Origin: Phycisphaerales bacterium Planc_01
Lineage (GTDB): Bacteria; Planctomycetota; Phycisphaerae; Sedimentisphaerales; Anaerobacaceae
DNA length: 64,000 nucleotides
Assembly (NCBI GenBank): GCA_001603075.1
Contig: LVBB01000016.1
Span: 224,926-288,925, forward strand
Direction: 5' to 3'
Shown here: one piece after another, positions 3,172-23,919 of the stretch
Numbering within the stretch: the stretch's first letter is position 1
Layout: each line of letters starts with the position of its first letter
Notes under the pieces: model-generated
What the model saw: the letters and a program-made list of their open reading frames with translations, nothing else
Told to the model about the DNA's origin: nothing
Databases searched by the model: none
Made by a program: the position numbers and the translations under genes

Positions 3172-4371
3172 ATGATGGATGATTCTCAGAGGTTCTTCCC
3201 CAGGTCTCGCACGGCGGCAATGCGATGGGTGATGTGTCTGTCCGCGATCCTACCGCTGCTGCTCAGTGGCTGCGCCGGGACGCCCGTGACGGACCGCTCC
3301 ACCGAACCAGAGGTTGTGTCGTCCGCCCCGGAGGTCACGCCGCGACCGCTACCGGCGAGCGAGCCGGCGACCCCGCCCGATAAGCCCGTCGCCGAGCCGC
3401 CTGAACCCTCACCTGCGGAGACTCCGGTCGAACCGGCCGAAGCTGGGATCGCCGAATCGATGCCCGTCGATCCGGAGGAGGAAGTCGTTGCGGCCCATCC
3501 GCCTGCAACGCAGCCGCCTGTCGCCGAGCCAAACGAGGCGCCCCCTGCCGAGATGGAATGGCAGAGGCCCCAAGAGCAGGAAGACCCGCAAGACGCTCTC
3601 GCCTGCTTCTACCAGCAGTACAGCGAGCTGCTGCACCAGTATGTGCGTGAGGACGGGCGTGTGGATTACGGCGGTCTTCGACGTAAACGTCTATGGCTAA
3701 AGGACTTACTACGAATTCCACACGAACTTGACCCGAACGACTACCGCAACTGGACCGAGGACGAGAAGCTCGCCTTCTGGATCAATACTTACAATCTGAA
3801 GATGCTCGACGTGATCGCACGGAATTACCCGATCCAGTCCTCAAGGTGGCTGCGGCTGACCTGGCCACCGAGCGACATCCGGCACATCGAGGGGATCTGG
3901 AGCAACTACAGGTTCATCGTGATGGACGAGGAGTTCACGCTGGGCGAGGTGGAGCGGCGTTTCTTCCACAGGAGTCTGGCCGACCCCCGGGCGTTTCTGG
4001 CCATCACCTATGCCAGCCTGTCCAGCCCACGGCTGCGGCGCCGGCCGTACCGTGGCGCAGATCTCGACCAACGGCTGGACGAGCAGGTCAAGGCGCTTCT
4101 GTCCGAAGGGAATGGGTTCCGAATCGACCACGAGAAGGGCATCGTCCATCTCTCGGCCCTGTTCAAGCCGACATGGCGAGGCCAGGAGTTCGTCCCCCGG
4201 TACGGAACGGACAAGAAATTCAAGGATCGCCCGGCCCAGACGCGAGCGGTCCTGAACTTCCTGACAAGGTACATCTCGCCAGACGAGGTCGATTTCCTGG
4301 AGGTGGAGAACTACTCTATCGAGTACAGCAGCTTCGACTGGCGGCTCAACGACACGTCGAGAAGCTACTGA
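3172..4371 (+). CDS. Lipoprotein with DUF547 domain
   Basis: The protein has an N-terminal hydrophobic segment and a lipobox (LLSGC, Cys34 from this start), so it should be exported and lipidated. Residues ~40-140 are a Pro/Glu-rich linker that would space the domain from the membrane. Residues ~150-395 match DUF547: EDEKLAFWINTYNLKMLDVI, the central W-P-P region, and a C-terminal SIEYSSFDWRLND. DUF547 has no settled biochemical role. Start choice is open: ATG 3172 and 3175 follow an AAGGG, while ATG 3220 would give a more typical 18-residue lipoprotein signal. A strong terminator follows, so this is a separate unit from metK. Confidence 0.85.
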   Translation: MMDDSQRFFPRSRTAAMRWVMCLSAILPLLLSGCAGTPVTDRSTEPEVVSSAPEVTPRPLPASEPATPPDKPVAEPPEPSPAETPVEPAEAGIAESMPVDPEEEVVAAHPPATQPPVAEPNEAPPAEMEWQRPQEQEDPQDALACFYQQYSELLHQYVREDGRVDYGGLRRKRLWLKDLLRIPHELDPNDYRNWTEDEKLAFWINTYNLKMLDVIARNYPIQSSRWLRLTWPPSDIRHIEGIWSNYRFIVMDEEFTLGEVERRFFHRSLADPRAFLAITYASLSSPRLRRRPYRGADLDQRLDEQVKALLSEGNGFRIDHEKGIVHLSALFKPTWRGQEFVPRYGTDKKFKDRPAQTRAVLNFLTRYISPDEVDFLEVENYSIEYSSFDWRLNDTSRSY

Positions 4372-4377
4372 CCCGCC

Positions 4378-4400
4378 GGGGGCCTTCGGGAGCCCCCTTT
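4378..4400 (+). terminator. Intrinsic terminator after the DUF547 lipoprotein gene
   Basis: Six-pair GC stem GGGGGC / GCCCCC with an 8-base loop, starting 7 bases after the stop and followed by TTT and, slightly further on, a run of five T. It separates the lipoprotein gene from metK. Confidence 0.6.
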
Positions 4401-4570
4401 GACGCACTTTTTGGTTGACGAGAGGATCGGCAGGTCTATCATGGGGACGCATTTCCGTTTGAGATGTGGTGCACCGGGCGACTTGCGCCCCGGCTTAATC
4501 GTGGCCAGTAGAGGGTGACCTCTTCGATTTCGGTTCTTTCAACGGGCAACGGATATAAGGTGCTAAGGAT
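4401..4570 (+). promoter_or_regulatory. metK leader with two hairpins
   Basis: A 170-base leader in front of metK. It contains a CCGGG...CCCGG hairpin (around 4475-4494) and a compact AGAGG-GTGA-CCTCT hairpin with a GNRA-type loop. SAM-responsive leaders are common before metK, but none of the conserved SAM-I, SAM-II or SAM-IV core sequences is visible. It is reported only as a structured leader of unknown class. Confidence 0.3.
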
Positions 4571-5773
4571 ATGGCGAAACGATTGAATGTGAGTAATCCC
4601 AACTGTGACATGCGGAACTATCTGTTCACCAGCGAATCGGTGACGATGGGCCACCCGGACAAGGTCGCCGATTGCATCTCCGATGCGATCCTCGACGCCA
4701 TGCTGGCCCAGGACCCGCAGAGCCGCGTTGCCTGCGAGACGCTGGTGAAGGCGGACCTGGTCGTGGTGGCCGGGGAGATCACCTCGAAGGCCACTGTCGA
4801 TATCCCGCAGGTTGTCCGCAACACGATCAAGGAGATCGGCTACGACGATCCCGAGGTGGGCTTCCATTATGACAACTGCGCCGTCATGGTGGCTGTGGGT
4901 CAGCAAAGCCCGGATATCTCTCAGGGTGTCACCGAGGGAGCAGGTCTGCACAAGGAGCAGGGCGCCGGCGATCAGGGCCTGATGTTCGGTTATGCCCGCC
5001 GGGAGACGCCCACCCTGATGCCTATGCCGATTCAACTGGCCCACAAGCTGACGATCCAGCTCGAGAAGATGCGCCGCACCCGGAAGCTGCCGTGGCTGCG
5101 TCCGGACGGCAAGAGCCAGGTGACGATCGAATACGAGGACGGCAAACCCAAGCGAATCCACACGGTGGTCGTCTCGACACAGCACACCGCCGACATCAGC
5201 CACCGCGAACTGCGGAACGAGATCATCGACAAGGTCATCAAGCCGGTGTTGCCCGTACGGCTGATCGACAAGAAGACCAAGTTCCACGTCAATCCCACGG
5301 GCAAGTTCGTCGTCGGCGGCCCGAAGGCCGACTGCGGGTTGACCGGACGCAAGATCATCGTGGACACCTACGGCGGCTGGGGTCGCCACGGGGGCGGCGC
5401 CTTCAGCGGCAAAGACCCGACCAAGGTGGACCGCACCGCCAGTTACATGGCCCGGTATGTCGCCAAGAACATCGTCGCGGCCGGCCTGGCCGACGCATGT
5501 GAAGTCCAACTGTCGTACGCCATCGGCGTGGCCGACCCGATCTCGGTCCTGATCAACACGGAAGGCACGGCCAAGATCAGCGAGACGAAGATCAGCCGGA
5601 TCGTCAAAGACCTCTTCCCACTGACGCCCAAGGGAATGGTCAATCACCTGAAGCTGGCCCGCCCGATCTTCGCGGCCACCGCCCATGGCGGGCATTTCGG
5701 TCGCGAGTTGCCTGAGTTCACCTGGGAGAAGACCGATATGGTCGAGGCCCTTCAGAAGGCCGCCCGGAAGTAG
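4571..5773 (+). CDS. metK: S-adenosylmethionine synthetase
   Basis: Cytosolic MetK makes S-adenosylmethionine from ATP and methionine, releasing phosphate and pyrophosphate. At 400 residues it is normal length. Signatures in order are GHPDK (residues 27-31, ATP/Mg site), the GAGDQG hexapeptide (~residue 137), and the glycine-rich [15 protein letters not shown] loop (~residue 277). SAM from this enzyme is the methyl donor for ArsM encoded 17 kb away, although metK is housekeeping and not part of that island. It is a single-gene unit: a structured leader precedes it and a strong terminator follows. Confidence 0.98.
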
Positions 5774-14628: not shown

Positions 14629-14654
14629 TGAGTATATTGCCATATAGTTACTCA
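14629..14654. promoter_or_regulatory. Operator-like palindrome of the first arsR operon
   Basis: Inverted repeat with TGAGTA / TACTCA outer arms around an AT-rich centre, TATATGGCAATATA on the minus strand. It lies 50 bases before arsR, where an autoregulating ArsR would bind. The same TATATGGC-AATATA core recurs before the second arsR at 21047. Confidence 0.55.
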
Positions 14655-14703
14655 TTCGGGCCGTCGTGGGGCGGCCCGGGGAACAGGCCGGAGCTATACG
14701 ACT

Positions 14704-15030
14704 ATGAGCACCAGTAAGAACTTGTTGTACGAGAAACAGGCCGAGATCGCCAAGGCCATCGCCCACCCGCTGCGCATCGCGGTGATCGACTTCCTCAAGG
14801 ACGGCGAGAGATGCGTTTGCGACATCGCCGAGCACGTGGGGTCCGAGCGGTCCAACGTCTCGCGGCACCTGGCCGTGATGGTCAATGCCGGCGTATTGAG
14901 CTGCCGCAAGGAGGGCCTGAAGGTCTTCTACTGGCTGCGGACGCCGTGCGTCGTCGATTTCCTCGGCTGCACGACCCGCGTCCTGAAGTGCCAGGCCCAG
15001 GAACACGAACAGATCCTGTCCGCTCTGTAG
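14704..15030 (+). CDS. arsR: ArsR-family metalloregulator (operon 1)
   Basis: A 108-residue winged-helix repressor. The alpha-3 region carries the Cys pair of classic ArsR proteins (ERCVCDIAEHVG, Cys37 and Cys39), followed by the recognition helix SERSNVSRHLAVM and the wing GLKVFYW. ArsR-type repressors leave DNA when As(III) or a related thiophilic ligand binds these cysteines. A C-terminal cysteine pair (Cys84 in LGCTTR and Cys92 in LKCQA) may supply extra ligands. It heads a run of seven plus-strand genes with tight spacing. It is only distantly similar to the second ArsR at 21074, so it is not a recent duplicate. Confidence 0.92.
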   Translation: MSTSKNLLYEKQAEIAKAIAHPLRIAVIDFLKDGERCVCDIAEHVGSERSNVSRHLAVMVNAGVLSCRKEGLKVFYWLRTPCVVDFLGCTTRVLKCQAQEHEQILSAL

Positions 15031-15048
15031 CTCGGGGGAACCGATTCA

Positions 15049-16377
15049 ATGGACTTCAAACGCGAGTGGAAGAAGCTCGTTCTCATTGCAGGTGTCTTCC
15101 TGGCCTGCTTCTATCTGCCCGTCGGCGTCAGACGCTTCGACGGCGCGCTCATCGAGTCGCTGCACCTGGTCCGGTGGTACGCCCGCGAGCATGTGCTGCT
15201 GTGCCTGATCCCGGCCTTTTTCATCGCCGGGGCGATTTCCGTTTTCGTCAGTCAGGCGTCGGTGATGAAGTACCTCGGCGCCAAGGCCAACAAGGTCCTC
15301 GCCTACGGCGTCGCCTCGGTCTCCGGCTCCATTCTGGCGGTCTGCTCGTGTACGGTGCTGCCGCTGTTTGCCGGCATCTACAAGATGGGCGCCGGCCTCG
15401 GCCCGGCCACCACGTTTCTCTATTCCGGCCCGGCGATCAATGTCCTGGCCATCATTCTGACCGCCCGCGTCCTGGGTCTGGAACTCGGCATTGCCCGCGC
15501 CGTCGGCGCGATCCTGTTCAGCGTCGTCATCGGTCTGCTGATGCACCTGATCTACCGCAAGGAAGAGACCGCCAAGGCCAACGTGCAGATGGCCATGCCC
15601 GATCCCGATGTCAAGCGTCCACTCTGGAAGAACGCCGTCTATTTCGCCTCGATGGTGGGCATTCTGGTCTTCGCCAACTGGGCCCGCAGCGGCGACGTTC
15701 GGGCGGTGTTCCTCTGCTGTCCCGGCGGTCTGACGACGTATCAGGTCGAGGGGACGCTTGTGGACCAGACCGACGAGACGGTGACCATCGTCGATACCGC
15801 CGGCAAGAAGCAGGAACTGCCCGCCGAACTGCTCCGTGGCGTCGAAGAGGTCCGAAAGAACAACCTCTATGAGACGATCCATCGCATCCGCTGGGTCCTG
15901 GTGGCCGGCCTTCTTGTGGCATTCCTGTTCATGGTCGGCGCCTGGTTTGGCCGAGGTGAGATTGGCGAGTGGGTCGAAGCCACATGGGGCTTTGCCAGGC
16001 AAATCCTTCCCCTGTTGCTGTTGGGCGTCCTGGTTGCAGGCTTTCTGCTGGGCCGGCCCGGGCATGAAGGCATCATTCCGACCGAATGGGTCAATACAGC
16101 GGTCGGGAGCAACTCGGTCTGGGCCAATCTCTTCGCGGCGGTCGCCGGAGCCTTCATGTACTTCGCCACACTGACCGAGATCCCCATTCTCCAGGGTTTG
16201 ATGGGCGCGGGTATGGCCAAAGGTCCGGCGCTGGCGTTGCTGTTGGCCGGCCCGGCTTTGAGCCTGCCCAACATGCTCGTCATTCGCTCCGTCATGGGCA
16301 CGCAGAAGACCATCGTGTTTGTGGCTCTGGTGATCGTCATGGCCACGATCTCCGGCATCCTATTTGGAGCTATGTGA
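15049..16377 (+). CDS. ArsP/DUF318-type permease with a soluble insert
   Basis: 442 residues with two hydrophobic blocks of about four helices each. The first block has the CSC motif (residues 99-101, LAVCSCTVLPL) and the FLYSGPAINVLA loop typical of PF03773 permeases. Characterised ArsP members export trivalent organoarsenicals, while others are linked to metal efflux. Between the blocks is a ~60-residue soluble insert (about 214-272) with adjacent cysteines (FLCCPGG, 223-224) and a small beta-rich stretch (TIVDTAGKKQELPAE). This makes the protein longer than a minimal ArsP. It starts 18 bases after arsR and ends 4 bases before the thioredoxin gene, so it is in the operon. Confidence 0.88.
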   Translation: MDFKREWKKLVLIAGVFLACFYLPVGVRRFDGALIESLHLVRWYAREHVLLCLIPAFFIAGAISVFVSQASVMKYLGAKANKVLAYGVASVSGSILAVCSCTVLPLFAGIYKMGAGLGPATTFLYSGPAINVLAIILTARVLGLELGIARAVGAILFSVVIGLLMHLIYRKEETAKANVQMAMPDPDVKRPLWKNAVYFASMVGILVFANWARSGDVRAVFLCCPGGLTTYQVEGTLVDQTDETVTIVDTAGKKQELPAELLRGVEEVRKNNLYETIHRIRWVLVAGLLVAFLFMVGAWFGRGEIGEWVEATWGFARQILPLLLLGVLVAGFLLGRPGHEGIIPTEWVNTAVGSNSVWANLFAAVAGAFMYFATLTEIPILQGLMGAGMAKGPALALLLAGPALSLPNMLVIRSVMGTQKTIVFVALVIVMATISGILFGAM

Positions 16378-16381
16378 AGGT

Positions 16382-16615
16382 ATGAAGAAGATACAGATTC
16401 TGGGGACCGGGTGTCCCAAGTGCAAGAAGCTGGCGGAGAACGCCGAGGCCGCCGCGAAGGCGCTGGGCCTTGAGTTCGACATCGAGAAGGTCACGGACAT
16501 CGGCGAGATCATGACGTTCGGCGTGATGGTCACGCCGGCTCTGGCCGTCGATGGCCAGGTGAAGGTCGTCGGCAAAGTGCCCTCGCCGGAAGAGATCCAA
16601 CGGTTGCTGGCATAG
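16382..16615 (+). CDS. Small cytosolic thioredoxin-fold protein (MTH895 type)
   Basis: A 77-residue protein with no signal or membrane segment. The N-terminal motif is GTGCPKCKK (Cys11, Cys14), followed by a Thr-Pro cis-proline loop (VMVTPALAVDG). This is the minimal 'redox-active disulfide' thioredoxin often encoded beside DUF318 permeases. It could reduce the permease's own cysteines or carry a bound metalloid; that role is inferred. The ATG at 16382 sits 4 bases after the permease stop. Confidence 0.9.
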   Translation: MKKIQILGTGCPKCKKLAENAEAAAKALGLEFDIEKVTDIGEIMTFGVMVTPALAVDGQVKVVGKVPSPEEIQRLLA

Positions 16616-16629
16616 ACGAGGAGTCGCCG

Positions 16630-17061
16630 ATGCGTTCCTGGTGGAAGGCGTTGCTCGCTGTGGTTCTGACAGGCACTGTCGCCGCCGTCGTCGTCTTGCG
16701 GCGCGCGACGCCGGCGACGGAAGACGGCCCCGCCGGCCCCGGCGTCGCGGAGGGTTCGACGCAGGCATACAAGCCGCTGCCGTGCCTCGTGGAATTCTCG
16801 GCCGGGGATTGCGGGCCCTGCAAGTTGATGGAGCCGATCCTCGAGGAACTCGCCCGAGACTATGAAGGGCGTCTGCGAATCGAGACCGTCGATCTCTGGA
16901 AGAGGCCGACCGTCGCCGAAGAGAACAACATCCGGATGTATCCCACGCAGATCTTCTACGATGCGATGGGCAACGAGCTGTTCCGCCACGAGGGCTTCTT
17001 TGCCAGGGAGGACATCCTTGAACAATGGAAGAGACTGGGCCATGACTTCGAGCAGCCATAG
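16630..17061 (+). CDS. Membrane-anchored thioredoxin, CGPC type
   Basis: 143 residues. Residues 6-23 form an uncleaved signal anchor, residues 25-47 are a Pro/Gly linker, and the rest is a thioredoxin domain with the classical CGPC active site (Cys61, Cys64) and the cis-Pro loop MYPTQIFYD. Topology puts the domain in the periplasm, where it would receive electrons from the CcdA homologue encoded downstream. It is 14 bases from the preceding thioredoxin gene and directly abuts the next one. Its thioredoxin fold closely resembles that of the following gene, indicating a tandem duplication. Confidence 0.88.
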   Translation: MRSWWKALLAVVLTGTVAAVVVLRRATPATEDGPAGPGVAEGSTQAYKPLPCLVEFSAGDCGPCKLMEPILEELARDYEGRLRIETVDLWKRPTVAEENNIRMYPTQIFYDAMGNELFRHEGFFAREDILEQWKRLGHDFEQP

Positions 17062-17649
17062 ATGATGGACAGACTTCTCATCCAGATCGAATGCCCATGC
17101 AGTGGGGGCAGGAGCGACCCGCTGCTGTTGCTGGCGGTGCTCGTCGGCACGTGGCTGCTGATCCACGGGTTGAGATTGGCCTTCAGAAAGGCAGGTGCAG
17201 GTGCAATGAACAAATCGAAGAAGATCGCGATCGTCGCTGTTCTGGCCGTCGCCGTGGTCGCGGTGCTCGCGGCAAGGCAGAACAGGTCGAGGCCGGCGGC
17301 GGAGACCGGGCCCGTCGAACAGCCGGTAGCTGTCCACCCGGAGGAACTGACGGGCAAGGGCCGGCCGGTGCTGATCGACCTCGGGGCCGGCACGTGCATC
17401 CCCTGTAAGATGATGGCCCCGATCCTCGCGGACCTCAAGGCCGAGTATGCCGGGGCCATGGATGTCCACTTCCTCGACGTCCACGAGAATCCCGATCTGA
17501 TCACCCTGTATGGAATTCGAGTCATCCCCACGCAGATCTTCTACGACGCGTTGGGCAAGGAGATGTTTCGACACGAAGGCTTTCTCTCCAAGGGCGACAT
17601 TCTGACCAAGTGGAAGGAGTTGGGAGTCGATCTGGTGTCACAACCATGA
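17062..17649 (+). CDS. Membrane-anchored thioredoxin, CIPC type
   Basis: 195 residues, starting on the base after the previous stop. The thioredoxin domain (residues ~88-195) has CIPC (Cys112, Cys115) and the cis-Pro loop VIPTQIFYD. It shares ...IFYDA.G.E.FRHEGF with the upstream CGPC protein. Two hydrophobic stretches precede the domain: residues 20-40, after a CPC motif (11-13), and 56-71. A start at ATG 17206 (residue 49, MNKSKKIAIV) would leave only the second anchor. The longer form is reported because it abuts its neighbour and the reading is uninterrupted. The domain should be periplasmic. Confidence 0.82.
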   Translation: MMDRLLIQIECPCSGGRSDPLLLLAVLVGTWLLIHGLRLAFRKAGAGAMNKSKKIAIVAVLAVAVVAVLAARQNRSRPAAETGPVEQPVAVHPEELTGKGRPVLIDLGAGTCIPCKMMAPILADLKAEYAGAMDVHFLDVHENPDLITLYGIRVIPTQIFYDALGKEMFRHEGFLSKGDILTKWKELGVDLVSQP

Positions 17650-18347
17650 TGCAGGAGTTGTTCACATCCTTGACGCGTGCCGTGGAAGCCGGTCCGACCG
17701 TCGCGATCGGGGCGGCGTTGATCTGGGGCATTCTGAGCGTGGTGCTGAGCCCGTGCCACCTGTCGAGCATCCCGTTGATCGTCGGCTTTATCGACCAGCA
17801 GGGTCGCATGTCCACGAGACGCGCGTTGTTCATCTCGACGCTGTTCGCAGGGGGCATCCTGGTGACGATTGGGGCCATTGGAGCCATCACGGCCGCCGCG
17901 GGGCGAATGCTCGGTGACGTCGGCCGCTATGGCAACTATTTCGTGGCTCTGATCTTCTTTCTCGTGGGCCTGTGCCTATTGGACGTCATCCCAATGCCCT
18001 TCTCCGGACCGGGCCAGGTCGGCATGAAGCGGAAAGGCCCGCTGGCGGCCCTGGTCCTCGGCCTGGTCTTCGGCATCGCCCTGGGCCCGTGCACCTTTGC
18101 CTATATGGCGCCGATGCTCGGCGTGACGTTTCGGGTAGCCTCGACCCGATTGTTGTATGGCGTCCTATTGCTCGTTGCTTATGGCATCGGCCACTGTTCG
18201 GTCATCATCCTGGCCGGCACGAGCACCGGATGGGTCCAGCGTTATCTCAACTGGAACGAGAAATCCCACGGCGCCGTTGTGGTCAAACGAGTGTGCGGCG
18301 TCCTGGTGATCCTGGGCGGACTGTACCTGATCTACACCGCACCCTGA
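17646..18347 (+). CDS. CcdA/DsbD-like thiol-electron transporter
   Basis: 233 residues with six predicted membrane helices. The paired cysteines of the family are present: SPCHLSSIPLI (Cys37) in helix 1 and GPCTFAYMAP (Cys149) in helix 4. CcdA passes electrons from cytosolic thioredoxin to periplasmic thiol proteins. The ATG at 17646 overlaps the upstream TGA (ATGA), showing translational coupling with the membrane-anchored thioredoxins that are its likely acceptors. No cytochrome c maturation genes are nearby, so the relay serves this operon rather than haem attachment. Confidence 0.9.
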   Translation: MMQELFTSLTRAVEAGPTVAIGAALIWGILSVVLSPCHLSSIPLIVGFIDQQGRMSTRRALFISTLFAGGILVTIGAIGAITAAAGRMLGDVGRYGNYFVALIFFLVGLCLLDVIPMPFSGPGQVGMKRKGPLAALVLGLVFGIALGPCTFAYMAPMLGVTFRVASTRLLYGVLLLVAYGIGHCSVIILAGTSTGWVQRYLNWNEKSHGAVVVKRVCGVLVILGGLYLIYTAP

Positions 18348-18398
18348 TTGCGGCGATTTCGACCTATGCATGGGATTATTGACAAGGGAGGAAAGAAC

Positions 18399-19085
18399 AT
18401 GGATCGAAGGAAGTTTCTGGCAACGACCCTGGCGGCAGGTGCAACGGCATCGGTGGCTTCCACGGCAGCGGCCGCTCAGGCAGACAAGACGATTCGCATC
18501 GTCGGTGTCTCGTGCAGCCCGCGAAAGGGCAAGACGACCGCCACGGCCATCCAGGTCGCGCTCGACGCCGCCAGGACGGTGAGCCCTCGGATCAAGGCGG
18601 AGTTGATCGACCTGGGCGGGCTTCAGATCGCCGGCTCGCTGGGCGGCGCGACCTCGGCCGAGGCGGCACAGCCTGAGGACGACTTCGATCTCGAAGTGCT
18701 GCCGGTACTCAAGGCGCCCCAGGTGCCGGACGGCATGATCATCGGTTCGCCAAGCTACTTCCGCAGCATGAGCGCGCTGTGTAAGGCCTTCCTCGAACGC
18801 TTGCAGGTCTTCCGCGAGCCCAGGCTGCAACTGGCGGACATGCCGCTCGGCGCGCTGGCCACCGGCGCTTATCGCAACGGGGGCCAGGAACTGGTCATCC
18901 AGGAGATTCAGACGGCCATGCTGGTCCATGAGGTGATGGTCGTCGGCGGCAAGCCACGGGCCCACCAGGGCGCGACCCTGTGGAACGCCTATAAAGACGA
19001 CATCATGAAGGACGAGTTCGGCATCGAGACCGCCAGACAGCTCGGCATCCGCGTCGCCGAGGCGGCCCTGCGCCTGAGAGCGTAA
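18399..19085 (+). CDS. Exported flavodoxin-fold FMN reductase (Tat-type signal)
   Basis: The strong GGGAGG box fixes the ATG at 18399 (228 residues). The N-terminus MDRRKFLATTLAAG is a twin-arginine-type signal, so the folded, cofactor-loaded protein should be exported. The mature part is an NADPH-dependent FMN reductase / iron-sulfur flavoprotein fold: the phosphate loop VSCSPRKGKTT is near residue 40 and GSPSYFRSMSALCK near residue 120. It is the last gene of the arsR-permease-thioredoxin-CcdA run. A periplasmic flavoprotein fits an oxidoreductase at the end of the thiol relay. It is not classic ArsH, which is cytosolic. Confidence 0.8.
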   Translation: MDRRKFLATTLAAGATASVASTAAAAQADKTIRIVGVSCSPRKGKTTATAIQVALDAARTVSPRIKAELIDLGGLQIAGSLGGATSAEAAQPEDDFDLEVLPVLKAPQVPDGMIIGSPSYFRSMSALCKAFLERLQVFREPRLQLADMPLGALATGAYRNGGQELVIQEIQTAMLVHEVMVVGGKPRAHQGATLWNAYKDDIMKDEFGIETARQLGIRVAEAALRLRA

Positions 19086-19163
19086 CGACGGACGCAGCCA
19101 TAGCCATATCGAGAGACGAGATTCGTCCTTGACGAAAGATCGAGGAACCGGATAATGCGGCCC

Positions 19164-19212
19164 ATTGGGGATGGGGTTCCCCACAACCGCCTTGTGGCTG
19201 ATGACTCCTACC
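19164..19212 (+). promoter_or_regulatory. Fluoride riboswitch (crcB motif)
   Basis: The conserved crcB aptamer is readable: a GGGGATGGGGTTCCCC 5' part, the ACAACCGCC segment, and the 3' hallmark GGCTGATGACTCCTACC. It lies about 90 bases before crcB and after the end of the arsenic operon. A GC hairpin (GGCG...CGCC, about 19224-19239) downstream could be the expression platform. Fluoride binding would switch on the exporter gene. Confidence 0.93.
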
Positions 19213-19303
19213 GAATCCGTGTTGGCGGGAGCTTGCGCCCTTATGTCGAGTGCCTCCCTCCATGTATGGGCAACAAGGACTCGTTCCACCGGGAATTGGA
19301 TGC

Positions 19304-19681
19304 ATGGGATATAAGCTGATCGGTCTGGCGCTTGCGGGGGCATGCGGGGCACTGGCCCGTTACGGACTGGCCGGCCTGTTTCAACGGGCTCAGCAGATGG
19401 GCTTCCCCTGGGGCACATTGACGGTGAACATGCTGGGCTGCTTCCTGTTCGGCCTGATCTGGACACTGACGCAGCAGCGACTGGCAATCAGCCCGGAGAC
19501 CCGAACGATCGTCCTGGTCGGCTTCCTGGGCTCGTTCACGACGTTCAGCACGTTCCTGTTCGAGACGGATCAGATGCTCGAACACGCCGAGTGGGTCATG
19601 GCCGGACTGAACCTGACGGGTCAACTCGGGCTGGGTTTGGCCGCGTACCTGCTGGGCGTCTTCTTAGGCCGGGTGGTTTGA
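19304..19681 (+). CDS. crcB: Fluoride channel/exporter CrcB (Fluc)
   Basis: 125 residues with four hydrophobic helices, the size of a Fluc subunit, which works as a dimer to let fluoride leave the cytoplasm. Diagnostic motifs are GALARYG near residue 15, GTLTVNMLGCF (39-47), and GFLGSFTTFSTF (~73-84) with the phenylalanines that line the pore. The start was moved to ATG 19304 because this gives the standard N-terminus. The upstream fluoride riboswitch confirms the function. Followed closely by a DUF190 gene. Confidence 0.96.
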   Translation: MGYKLIGLALAGACGALARYGLAGLFQRAQQMGFPWGTLTVNMLGCFLFGLIWTLTQQRLAISPETRTIVLVGFLGSFTTFSTFLFETDQMLEHAEWVMAGLNLTGQLGLGLAAYLLGVFLGRVV

Positions 19682-19699
19682 TGGGAAAGGAGTCATGCT

Positions 19700-20089
19700 G
19701 TGATCCTGCCTTCTGAAGCGCAATTACTGCGGATCTTCATCGGGGAAAACGACAAGCACGGACATCGCCCGCTTTATGAGGCGATCGTCGAGGAAGCCCG
19801 CAGGCGAGGCATGGCCGGCGCAACGGTCCTGCGGGGCGTGATGGGGTTCGGCAAGGCCAGCCGCATCCACACGTTCAAGATCCTCCGCCTCTCGGAAGAC
19901 CTGCCCATCGTGATCGAGATCGTGGACAAGCCGGAGCGGATTGCCGCGTTTCTCCCTGATCTGGACAAAATGATCGGCGAGGGATTGGTCACGCTGGAGA
20001 AAGTCCGTGTCGTCGCATACCGCCGCAATGCAGACGCGGGCCCCGGCGGCTGCTCGCCGGACGATGCTGCCGATCCGCAGTCACCCTGA
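19700..20089 (+). CDS. DUF190 family protein
   Basis: 129 residues from a GTG start preceded by GGGAAAGGAG. The sequence LLRIFIGENDKHGHRPLYEA followed by GMAGATVLRGVMGFG is characteristic of DUF190, a PII-like ferredoxin-fold family. Members commonly sit beside crcB, and an accessory or signalling role in fluoride resistance is inferred from that linkage only. Starts 18 bases after crcB and is presumably under the same riboswitch. The C-terminal 15 residues are Asp/Pro/Gly-rich and probably disordered. Confidence 0.9.
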   Translation: MILPSEAQLLRIFIGENDKHGHRPLYEAIVEEARRRGMAGATVLRGVMGFGKASRIHTFKILRLSEDLPIVIEIVDKPERIAAFLPDLDKMIGEGLVTLEKVRVVAYRRNADAGPGGCSPDDAADPQSP

Positions 20090-21073: not shown

Positions 21074-21414
21074 ATGCGTGATGTACTGGATATCACCAAG
21101 GCGCTGGCCGATGGGAACCGGCTGCGGGCGCTGATGGCGCTGGCGGGCGGGGAGTTGTGCGTCTGTCAGATCATCGAGATGCTGGGTCTGGCACCGTCGA
21201 CCGTTTCGAAGCACATGTCGATCCTGCGTCAGGCGGGCCTGGTCGAGGCCCGCAAGGAGGGGCGATGGATGTACTATCGCCTCGTGAGCCGGGATGGCTC
21301 GAAGGCGGCCAGGGAGGCGATCGCCTGGCTACGGCGGAACCTCGCCGCAAGTCCGCAGGTCGTCGAGGACGCCAAGACACTCAAGAAGATCCTGTGCACC
21401 GATCGGGAGGAACT

Positions 21415-21439
<25 letters not shown>
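21074..21439 (+). CDS. arsR: ArsR-family metalloregulator (operon 2)
   Basis: A 121-residue winged-helix repressor with the canonical ELCVCQIIEMLG metalloid-binding helix (Cys29, Cys31), the recognition helix APSTVSKHMSILRQAGL, and the wing KEGRWMYYRLV. Two further cysteines lie in the C-terminal tail (KKILC, EELC) and may complete a three-thiol As(III) site. It heads arsR-arsC-arsM-acr3 and overlaps arsC by 25 bases, so translation is coupled. A perfect palindrome at 21047 is the likely autoregulatory operator. Confidence 0.95.
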
Positions 21440-21867
<428 letters not shown>

Positions 21868-21884
21868 CACTCTGGAGGTTGTTC

Positions 21885-22715
21885 ATGCTTGAAGACACGC
21901 AAGACAAAGAGAACCTTCGCGAATCGGTTCGGACCGGATATGCGCAGATCGCCCAGGAAAGCGGGCGCTGCTGTTGCGGCTGCGGCGACGCGACCCAGCT
22001 CGCTCAGACCATCGGCTACACGGCGCAGGAGTTGGAGGCCCTGCCGGAAGGGGCCAATATGGGTCTGTCCTGCGGCAATCCGACGGCCCTGGCGGGCCTG
22101 AAGACCGGCCAAGCAGTGCTGGACTTGGGCAGCGGTGGTGGATTCGACGTCTTCATCGCGGCCGCCAAGGTCGGTCCCGCCGGACGCGTGATCGGCGTGG
22201 ACATGACGCCCGAGATGCTCGTCAAGGCCCGCAAGAGCATCCCCGCCTTCACCCGCAAGACAGGCCTGAACAACGTCGAGTTTCGCCTGGGCGAGATCGA
22301 GCACCTGCCCGTAGCCGATGCCTGCATCGACGTGGTCATCTCGAACTGCGTCATCAACCTCTCGCCGGAGAAAGACCAGGTCTGGCAGGAGATCGCCCGC
22401 GTCCTGAAGCCCGGCGGGATCGCATGCGTCTCCGATCTGGCCCTGAAGGCCCCTCTGCCCGATGCCGTCAAAGCGGCGGCCGAGGCGCTGATCGGATGCA
22501 TTTCCGGTGCCGTGCCGATCGCCGAAACACTTGGCATGATCGAGGCCGCCGGTCTGAACGTCACGCAGACGGAAGACAAACCCTACAACGTCGACGTGAT
22601 GGACGGCTGCAACGACTCGTTGTACAAGGCCGTCCGAGACAGCCTGGCGCCCGGCGCGAGACTCGGGGACTACGTTGTCAGCGTCAATTTCGTTGCGAAG
22701 AAACGGACGAATTGA
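21885..22715 (+). CDS. arsM: Arsenite S-adenosylmethionine methyltransferase
   Basis: 276 residues from ATG 21885 (GGAGG box). ArsM methylates As(III) with SAM to mono-, di- and trimethyl species. The SAM site is [11 protein letters not shown] (78-88). The three conserved substrate cysteines are visible at Cys63 (LSCGNP), Cys155 (SNCVINL) and Cys205 (IGCISG). An extra N-terminal cluster CCCGCG (29-34) is typical of the bacterial form. Methylated trivalent products are more toxic, which suits having an ArsP-type organoarsenical permease in the first operon. Confidence 0.96.
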
Positions 22716-22767
22716 TCGCCGAAGTCGTGGGACAAAGCCCCGCATAGGATCTACAGGAGCCGAAGCC

Positions 22768-23919
22768 ATGGCAAATGAAACATCTCTCAAGACCGAGAAG
22801 CAACTGAACGTCTTCGAGAAGTATCTGACGATCTGGGTGGCGTTGTGCATCGTCGGCGGGATCGTGCTGGGCAAGGTCGCGCCGGGCGTGGCCCAGTCGC
22901 TCGATGGCCAGGCCATTTACGTCGGCGGGGCGCCGGTGGTGTCGATCCCCATCGCGATCTGCCTGTTCTTCATGATGTACCCGATCATGGTGAAGATCGA
23001 CTTCGCCGAGGTTGTCAAGGCGGGCAAGAGTCCCAGGCCGGTCCTGCTGACGCTGATCGTCAACTGGGCCGTCAAACCCTTCACCATGTTCGCCATCGCG
23101 ACGTTCTTTCTGGGCTACGTCTTTCGGGGATTGATCCCCGGCACGGAGATCGTCAAGGACGGCACCGAGGTCGAGTTGTGGCGTTCGTACATCTCCGGGG
23201 CGATTCTGCTCGGGATCGCGCCGTGTACGGCGATGGTGCTGATGTGGGGCTATCTGGCGCGGGGCAACCAGGGCCACACGCTGGTGATGGTCGCGATCAA
23301 CTCGCTGACGATGCTGGTGCTCTACGGCCTGCTGGGGGGCTGGCTGCTGGGCGTCAACCAGATGCCCGTGCCGTGGCAGGCGCTGCTGCTGTCCATCGCG
23401 ATCTACGTGGCCCTGCCGCTGGTGGCCGGGTACTTCTCGCGCAAGTGGATCATCCAGGCCAAGGGCCAGGCGTGGTTCCAGGCGAAGTTCCTGCACGTGC
23501 TGACGCCGGTGTCGATCATCGCTCTGCTGGCGACGCTGGTTCTGCTGTTCAGCTTCAAGGGCGAGACGATCGTCGCCAACCCGCTGACGATCCTGTGGAT
23601 CGCGATCCCGCTGTTCATCCAGACGGTGCTGATCTTCGCCATCACCTATGCCCTGGCCCGAATGCTCAAGTTCAGCTATGAAGACGCCGCCCCTTCGGCG
23701 ATGATCGGCGCGTCGAACCATTTCGAGGTCGCCATCGCCACGGCGACCATGCTCTACGGCCTGTCCAGCGGCGCAGCCCTGGCCACCGTCGTCGGCGTCC
23801 TCATCGAGGTCCCCGTCATGCTCATGCTGGTCAAGGTCTGCCTGCGGACGAAGGGATGGTTCGCTTCCGAGGTGCTCGGCAACAATGGATGCGCCCCATC
23901 CATTGCCGCATCCCACTGA
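22768..23919 (+). CDS. acr3: Arsenite efflux permease, ACR3 family
   Basis: 383 residues with about ten membrane helices from ATG 22768 (AGGAG box). ACR3 (also named arsB in some genomes) expels As(III) using the proton gradient. The conserved catalytic cysteine is in [12 protein letters not shown] (Cys153). The second conserved region [14 protein letters not shown] carries the essential Glu. It starts 52 bases after arsM and is the last gene of the operon. It meets the cupin regulator tail-to-tail with a 35-bp gap. Confidence 0.95.

Follow-up and report, generated by a model that had tools for sequence, protein, structure and literature searches.

The 64,000-nucleotide stretch of Phycisphaerales bacterium Planc_01 analysed here (contig LVBB01000016.1, positions 224,926 to 288,925; hereafter the window) carries seven close-set plus-strand genes between positions 14704 and 19085. 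They encode an ArsR repressor, a PF03773 permease, a small ArsE-type thioredoxin, two membrane-anchored thioredoxins, a CcdA homologue and a flavoprotein with a twin-arginine translocation (Tat) signal (Table 1). According to the coordinates, 18, 4, 14, 0, -4 (an ATGA overlap) and 51 bases lie between successive genes. A sequence-only reading of this DNA had described the same anatomy, with tight spacing, an ATGA overlap and abutting genes, and the profile, transmembrane and motif data matched all the families, CxxC motifs, anchors and the Tat leader that it listed. Two starts were corrected: the start codon of the flavoprotein is the ATG at 18399, and the thioredoxin with the CIPC motif begins at either 17062 or 17206.

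No transmembrane segments were predicted in the CPKC thioredoxin. The two anchored thioredoxins (CGPC and CIPC) are 44 percent identical to each other, so one of them is probably a tandem copy; at least two such open reading frames were found in 9 of the 140 relatives' loci described below. Read from position 17062, the CIPC thioredoxin has two transmembrane segments and an N-terminal CPC motif (residues 11 and 13). A CPC leader similar to this extension (17062-17205) was seen in 18 of 159 thioredoxin open reading frames of relatives, identical copies included, using a single search pattern that variants may escape. The CcdA protein shows seven hydrophobic windows, the first two overlapping, and has no fused thioredoxin domain; its Cys37 and Cys149 are kept in 139 of 139 aligned sequences and Cys184 in 137. 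The conserved motif of the PF03773 permease, in an alignment of 16 sequences, is AVCSC(T/S)VLP.

The CcdA gene has many relatives. At E 1e-3, matches were obtained in 46 of 61 genomes (the window's own and its nearest), 40 of which had a match with E below 1e-40, 38 of these at 65 percent identity or more. At E 1e-20, 72 of 298 genomes of the class and 35 of 392 genomes of the phylum matched, and a scan of named genomes confirmed at least 569 relatives. The best 80 of these at least 569 include records labelled Planctomycetota, Verrucomicrobia, Lentisphaerae, Kiritimatiellales, Hydrogenedentota, Sumerlaeota, Armatimonadota, Eisenbacteria and Poribacteria, labels that may be wrong for metagenome-assembled genomes; another carrier in the scan, Pontiellaceae bacterium B1224, has a record without a mark as such a genome. 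We read 38 + 40 + 80 = 158 loci and removed 16 with identical CcdA and two (L110 and L156) with no surviving CcdA call. The remaining 140 combine best-scoring relatives with sampled Planctomycetota genomes, are not a random draw and are in part cut by contig ends; a partial CcdA match in genome G057 lies outside this set.

Counting genes on the CcdA strand, an anchored-family thioredoxin was present in 135 of the 140 loci (131 outside PpiC-like fusions), the permease in 114, the ArsE-type thioredoxin in 113, arsR1 in 98, ACR3 in 61, arsC in 48, the flavoprotein, which is therefore optional, in 42, a MerB-like domain in 41, a PpiC-like protein plus thioredoxin in 38, arsM in 36 and an RND pump in 10. 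Of permease, ACR3, arsC and arsM, one or more occurred in 128 loci, and in 122 a thioredoxin, either free-standing or with MerB-like or PpiC-like parts fused to it, lay no more than 150 bases upstream of CcdA. As a control, we examined 25 loci of other CcdA/DsbD-family genes on either strand. None had the permease, ACR3, arsC or an ArsE-type thioredoxin, the single exception to the absence of arsenic genes being a weak 25-bit match to the arsM query in one locus. The control loci came from the same 61 genomes, and among the first 20 there were 14 whose genome also carries the relay. These first 20 had passed over seven better-scoring CcdA-family paralogues (fragments aside); five were added, also free of arsenic genes, one of which (L254) is a 42-bit match to the ArsG query, and the paralogues in G037 and G059 were left out, being no more than 5 kb away from the relay itself. 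Since the gene set recurs in relatives and the 25 control loci lack it, it is not a product of chance. A one-off assembly of neighbouring genes was likewise ruled out by the recurrence of the module.

The same three kinds of part make up ArsEFG, a partly characterised organoarsenic system which is said to have been described by Chen, Zhang and Rosen in 2019 in terms of nitroarsenical reduction and efflux through ArsG. Both systems have an ArsE-type thioredoxin, an anchored CxxC protein and a CcdA-superfamily membrane protein with a Cys pair, and the ArsG loci of the class resemble the window further in their arsR and PF03773-type permease and, for the most part, in gene order; the window differs in that true thioredoxins stand in place of ArsF and its CcdA falls far short of the ArsG cut-off. 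The claim of an undescribed arsenic-resistance design, made from the sequence, was therefore too strong. What is new here is that in a same-genus relative without a CcdA match (G005) ArsF and ArsG occupy the CcdA slot (L212, 4645-5843). The operon of this relative runs arsR1, permease, ArsE-type thioredoxin, thioredoxin/MerB, PpiC/thioredoxin, ArsF, ArsG, FMN_red flavoprotein, arsC, arsM and ACR3, and its ArsG and ArsF scored 267 bits (cut-off 200) and 79 bits (cut-off 60).

Equally new is the mutual exclusion of the two types. Among the 298 class genomes, counted as one draw as far as the genome handles show, 72 had CcdA (E 1e-20) and 33 an ArsG over the cut-off, with an overlap of 0 where 8.0 was expected (hypergeometric 5.9e-5); for the 57 genomes with CcdA at 48 percent identity or more the overlap was again 0 against 6.3 (5.7e-4), figures that are not true probabilities because the genomes are related. 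Three genera hold the two types in different species: g1 (CcdA in G000 and G002, ArsG in G005), g6 (G010 and G307 versus G269) and g42 (G050, G054 and G137 versus G254). In the 20 ArsG loci fetched from the 33 genomes, ArsF was found in 20, the permease in 18, arsR1 and the ArsE-type thioredoxin in 17 each and a MerB-like fusion in 5; ArsF homologues were also present in 16 of the 158 CcdA loci. ArsG aligned with CcdA by hhalign at 98.2 percent probability over 212 columns, its Cys pair being conserved in 21 of 21 sequences, and the CxxC of ArsF, kept in 24 of 24, aligned with that of thioredoxin (86 percent). We take the conserved cysteine positions of CcdA and ArsG to have the redox role that they have in CcdA/DsbD. 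The simplest reading of these sequence comparisons is that the thioredoxin-CcdA and ArsF-ArsG pairs may be alternative versions of one outward relay. Since ArsG is homologous to CcdA and keeps a Cys pair, and since ArsF is anchored and has a CxxC motif, ArsEFG itself resembles a thiol relay directed outward, and the window CcdA would work like ArsG without belonging to its family. A search of the open-access literature (titles, abstract openings and term counts) found no paper on the CcdA/ArsG interchange or on the thioredoxin-MerB fusions described below.

We therefore hold it to be reasonably probable that the window unit is a CcdA-type variant of ArsEFG that sends reductant outward for arsenical detoxification. 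The electron donor would likely be the cytosolic ArsE-type thioredoxin, from which the membrane pair Cys37/Cys149 of CcdA would carry dithiol electrons outward to the CGPC and CIPC thioredoxins at the outer face of the inner membrane. The anchored thioredoxins may use these electrons themselves or pass them to an extracytoplasmic arsenical-handling partner, for which the candidates are the Tat flavoprotein in the window and, among many relatives, a MerB-like thiol domain. Outside the membrane, organic or pentavalent arsenicals would be reduced or captured by thiols; the arsenical would be moved by the ArsP-type permease, or by ACR3 or an RND pump in relatives, and the unit would be switched on by the four-cysteine ArsR. 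Of the cytosol-to-outside thiol path proposed by the sequence-only reading, the parts and their tie to arsenic genes stand, in 128 of 140 loci as against the controls, and the path remains a proposal drawn from sequence. The unit is real and widespread, and the mechanism outlined here is plausible. As the relay recurs in loci with the labels Planctomycetota, Verrucomicrobia, Hydrogenedentota and others, arsenic handling may commonly include a path that sends reductant outward.

Several observations weigh against this interpretation. The window CcdA scores only 49.6 bits with the ArsG model NF040495 (cut-off 200) and no protein of the window unit matches the ArsF model NF040494, both anchored proteins being PF00085 thioredoxins, so that the proposed equivalence rests on position and exclusion. 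The exclusion is itself tempered by the relatedness of the genomes and by one ArsG match below the cut-off (G307, 75 bits) that coincides with CcdA. Permease, ACR3, arsC and arsM are all absent from 12 of the 140 loci, most of them on short or cut contigs; those with both flanks are L060 and L063 (thioredoxin-CcdA only), L092 (arsR-type genes nearby) and L139 (an RND pump). The distances of the permease hardly follow those of CcdA (Mantel r 0.13, n 104, with 24 of 500 permutations as high, for a permease set that mixes subtypes). Moreover, 59 of the 140 loci lack all three of MerB-like domain, PpiC-like protein and flavoprotein, so no single exported acceptor is fixed. Finally, NCBIfam names ArsG an efflux permease (NF040495), and the introduction of PMC9144182 lists it among the efflux transporters shown on ars operons.

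This last point leads to an alternative in which CcdA, like ArsG as annotated, is the arsenical efflux permease itself and the loading, reduction or chaperoning of the arsenical falls to the thioredoxins. The annotated permease ArsG is homologous to CcdA and takes its slot, and the additional Cys184 in 137 of 139 CcdA sequences would fit a transport function; we nevertheless judge this unlikely, given that a PF03773-type permease is already present in 18 of 20 ArsG and 114 of 140 CcdA loci, that the conserved Cys pair of both proteins lies at the CcdA/DsbD redox positions, and that 122 of the 140 loci have CcdA directly behind a thioredoxin gene. With slot, fold family and Cys pair common to ArsG and CcdA, and with their exclusion in 298 genomes, the question of pump or carrier is directly testable. 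ArsEFG is currently filed as a reductase plus an efflux permease, and its working may need rethinking.

It is very doubtful that the thioredoxins just feed the cytosolic ArsC with CcdA as an ancillary part (Castillo and Saier, 2010). arsC is present in 48 of the 140 loci and its distances follow those of CcdA (r 0.59, n 42), and the window has an arsC in the next operon; against this, the thioredoxin copies beside CcdA have membrane-anchor N-termini while ArsC is cytosolic, and 92 of the 140 loci, some truncated, have no arsC call. Castillo and Saier (2010) considered transmembrane flow less likely since ArsC is cytoplasmic, a premise that the anchored thioredoxin copies place in doubt. Least credible to us is a module for another soft metal(loid) or organometal (mercury, antimony or selenium) or for envelope thiol repair that borrows arsenic-like parts. 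The MerB-like domain in relatives, a weak SaoL match, the RND pumps in 10 loci and the loci L060 and L063 without arsenic genes would suit such a function, but the established arsenic genes ACR3, arsC and arsM accompany CcdA in 61, 48 and 36 of the 140 loci and are not shared by the control loci.

Pairwise distances of CcdA correlated with those of the ArsE-type thioredoxin (r 0.63, n 105), of arsC and of the anchored thioredoxin (r 0.51, n 118), less with those of arsR1 (0.31, n 91), ACR3 (0.29, n 55) and the flavoprotein (0.26, n 37) and hardly with those of arsM (0.08, n 34, 119 of 500 permutations as high), all these correlations including shared organism history. As CcdA distances track both thioredoxin types and hardly the permease, the relay seems to move as Trx3-Trx-CcdA (Trx3 being the ArsE-type thioredoxin) and to be combined with different exporters. 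Homologous loci without the permease or arsR, which the sequence-only reading had named as evidence against it, were found in part: of the 113 loci with an ArsE-type thioredoxin, 55 have this gene no more than 150 bases downstream of the permease, 12 downstream of ACR3 and 5 downstream of an RND gene, and the relay is hence not bound to this permease. Another genome of the same genus (G003, 75 percent complete and without a CcdA match) has arsR-permease-TrmO and no relay (L213). The only plasmid record matched was pSCD of the cultured betaproteobacterium Sulfuricella denitrificans skB26, with arsM, a small thioredoxin, arsC, a TolC-adaptor-RND set, a thioredoxin and CcdA (58.5 percent identity); in this arsenic island (L211, 3068-9702) the TolC-adaptor-RND genes stand directly 5' of thioredoxin-CcdA.

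The MerB-like domain of the relatives, absent from the window, is nearly always fused to an anchored thioredoxin, and these fusions are likewise new here. It was not found elsewhere in the window's genome, an empty result that is weak for want of a positive control. PF03243 was detected in 33 of 33 aligned fusions and NosL in 15. One example, a membrane-anchored thioredoxin fused to a MerB-like domain, lies inside an ars operon (L051, 6450-7769). Its AlphaFold model (mean pLDDT 84.9, pTM 0.64) had MerB 5c17 as the top Foldseek match (E 7.3e-9), and VIA aligned 126 residues with MerB 3f0o (Z 14.8, root-mean-square deviation 3.3), the one MerB row in a list otherwise made up of thioredoxins. The same protein stayed below the cut-offs of the curated MerB models NF009710 (26.5 bits, cut-off 193) and NF033555 (25.6 bits, cut-off 200). 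In a profile alignment to MerB2 (E 7.7e-12), two invariant Cys columns fell on Cys of MerB2 and a third on its Ser; these columns are presumably the MerB catalytic positions 96, 159 and 99. Three thiols would suit As(III), and the fusion is a candidate protein for capturing organoarsenicals or for cleaving them in the absence of oxygen. The introduction of PMC10579292 calls the mechanism of dimethylarsenate demethylation unclear, and passages of the same paper have methanogens demethylate DMAs(III) and assign methylarsenite to the dioxygenase C-As lyase ArsI, including in denitrifiers from anoxic paddy soil.

A more far-reaching version, quite improbable as a whole in our estimate, would make ArsG and the window CcdA interchangeable outward electron carriers and ArsEFG an extracytoplasmic reductase instead of an exporter. 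The relay would in many relatives power an anchored thioredoxin-NosL/MerB-like fusion, whose three-thiol site captures organoarsenicals or cleaves them without O2 outside the membrane; in the form seen in the window, the outer work would fall to a second thioredoxin and the Tat flavoprotein.

Other known systems share some of these parts. Earlier-described ars operons (8 instances in 7 organisms) contain the same three redox parts; 7 of the 8 include arsC, and the redox parts were interpreted there as a putative arsenate reductase system, whereas the window arsC belongs to the next operon. Compared with these operons, the window adds a second anchored thioredoxin and the Tat flavoprotein, and the interchange with ArsG is shown. 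CcdA/DsbD thiol relays have the DsbD_TM family and both redox cysteines in common with the window CcdA, which differs in its place in an ars cluster, its lack of fused thioredoxin domains and its third conserved cysteine, Cys184. The Sec-assisted organometallic (SAO) system, in passages of a review (PMC13188914), has a PF03773-related permease (SaoE), a thioredoxin-like SaoT and a MerB-like SaoL, whereas the window unit has no ABC transporter gene and SaoL matched only weakly in one relative; the SaoE model gave 104.8 bits with the window permease, below its cut-off of 325. The Tso system was ruled out (TsoB 22.7 bits versus 805).

The four cysteines of ArsR1 (Cys37, Cys39, Cys82 and Cys89) are kept in 96, 90, 97 and 98 percent of 99 aligned distinct sequences. 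No palindromic ArsR operator was found 5' of arsR1 (seed 6, length 8), and promoter-like and terminator-like sites were within about 1.5 standard deviations of shuffled sequence. A twin-arginine motif occurs in 35 of 40 distinct flavoprotein homologues of at least 200 amino acids. ArsH was ruled out as the identity of the flavoprotein, no NCBIfam ArsH model matching at E 0.001.

Table 1. Features of the seven-gene unit and its downstream neighbours in the window.
Feature	Position	Strand	Evidence or remark
arsR1, ArsR/SmtB repressor with Cys37, Cys39, Cys82, Cys89	14704..15030	+	NF033788 80.7 bits, cut-off 55
PF03773 (ArsP-type) permease, long type, hydrophilic stretch inserted	15049..16377	+	PF03773 254.5 bits, cut-off 32.3
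ArsE/MTH895-type small thioredoxin, CPKC	16382..16615	+	TIGR00412 111.3 bits, cut-off 62; PF13192
Membrane-anchored thioredoxin 1, CGPC	16630..17061	+	PF00085 54.8 bits; one predicted N-terminal transmembrane segment
Membrane-anchored thioredoxin 2, CIPC	17062..17649, short start 17206	+	PF00085 47.9 bits
CcdA (DsbD_TM) membrane electron carrier, putative	17646..18347	+	PF02683 41.5 bits, cut-off 27.1
Tat-signal FMN_red flavoprotein, optional partner	18399..19085	+	PF03358 72.4 bits; MDRRKFL Tat motif
Fluoride riboswitch, downstream boundary; crcB's, not relay's	19158..19217	+	RF01734 57.9 bits
Second, canonical ars operon, arsR2-arsC-arsM-ACR3	21074..23919	+	about 2 kb past the seven-gene unit
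arsR2	21074-21439	+	second ars operon
arsC	21415-21867	+	TIGR02691 151 bits, below cut-off 174.3
arsM	21879-22715	+	NF008823 arsenite methyltransferase 293 bits, cut-off 263
ACR3	ends 23919	+	TIGR00832 acr3 388.8 bits, cut-off 282.8

Adjoining the relay, a fluoride riboswitch is followed by crcB and DUF190 (19158-20089). As these genes have their own riboswitch, the seven-gene unit ends near 19085, and crcB and DUF190 were ruled out as extra operon members; they lie near the relay in 7 and 5 of the 140 loci, respectively. arsC sits past riboswitch, crcB and DUF190, outside the seven-gene unit, and genes like those of its operon adjoin the relay in many relatives.

Three minor observations were made in the relatives. 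Locus L138, from a record labelled Candidatus Kuenenia, a label that may be wrong, has the same CcdA as contig C39 of G041, a genome assigned to the taxonomic order of the window's own organism. In L049 a second, distant CcdA-like gene (4358-5053) lies within the same ars cluster and matches no NCBIfam model. A TrmO-domain gene adjoins the permease or the ArsE-type thioredoxin in L051 (4133-4774) and L213 (9567-10082), and TrmO calls were made in 6 of the 140 loci.

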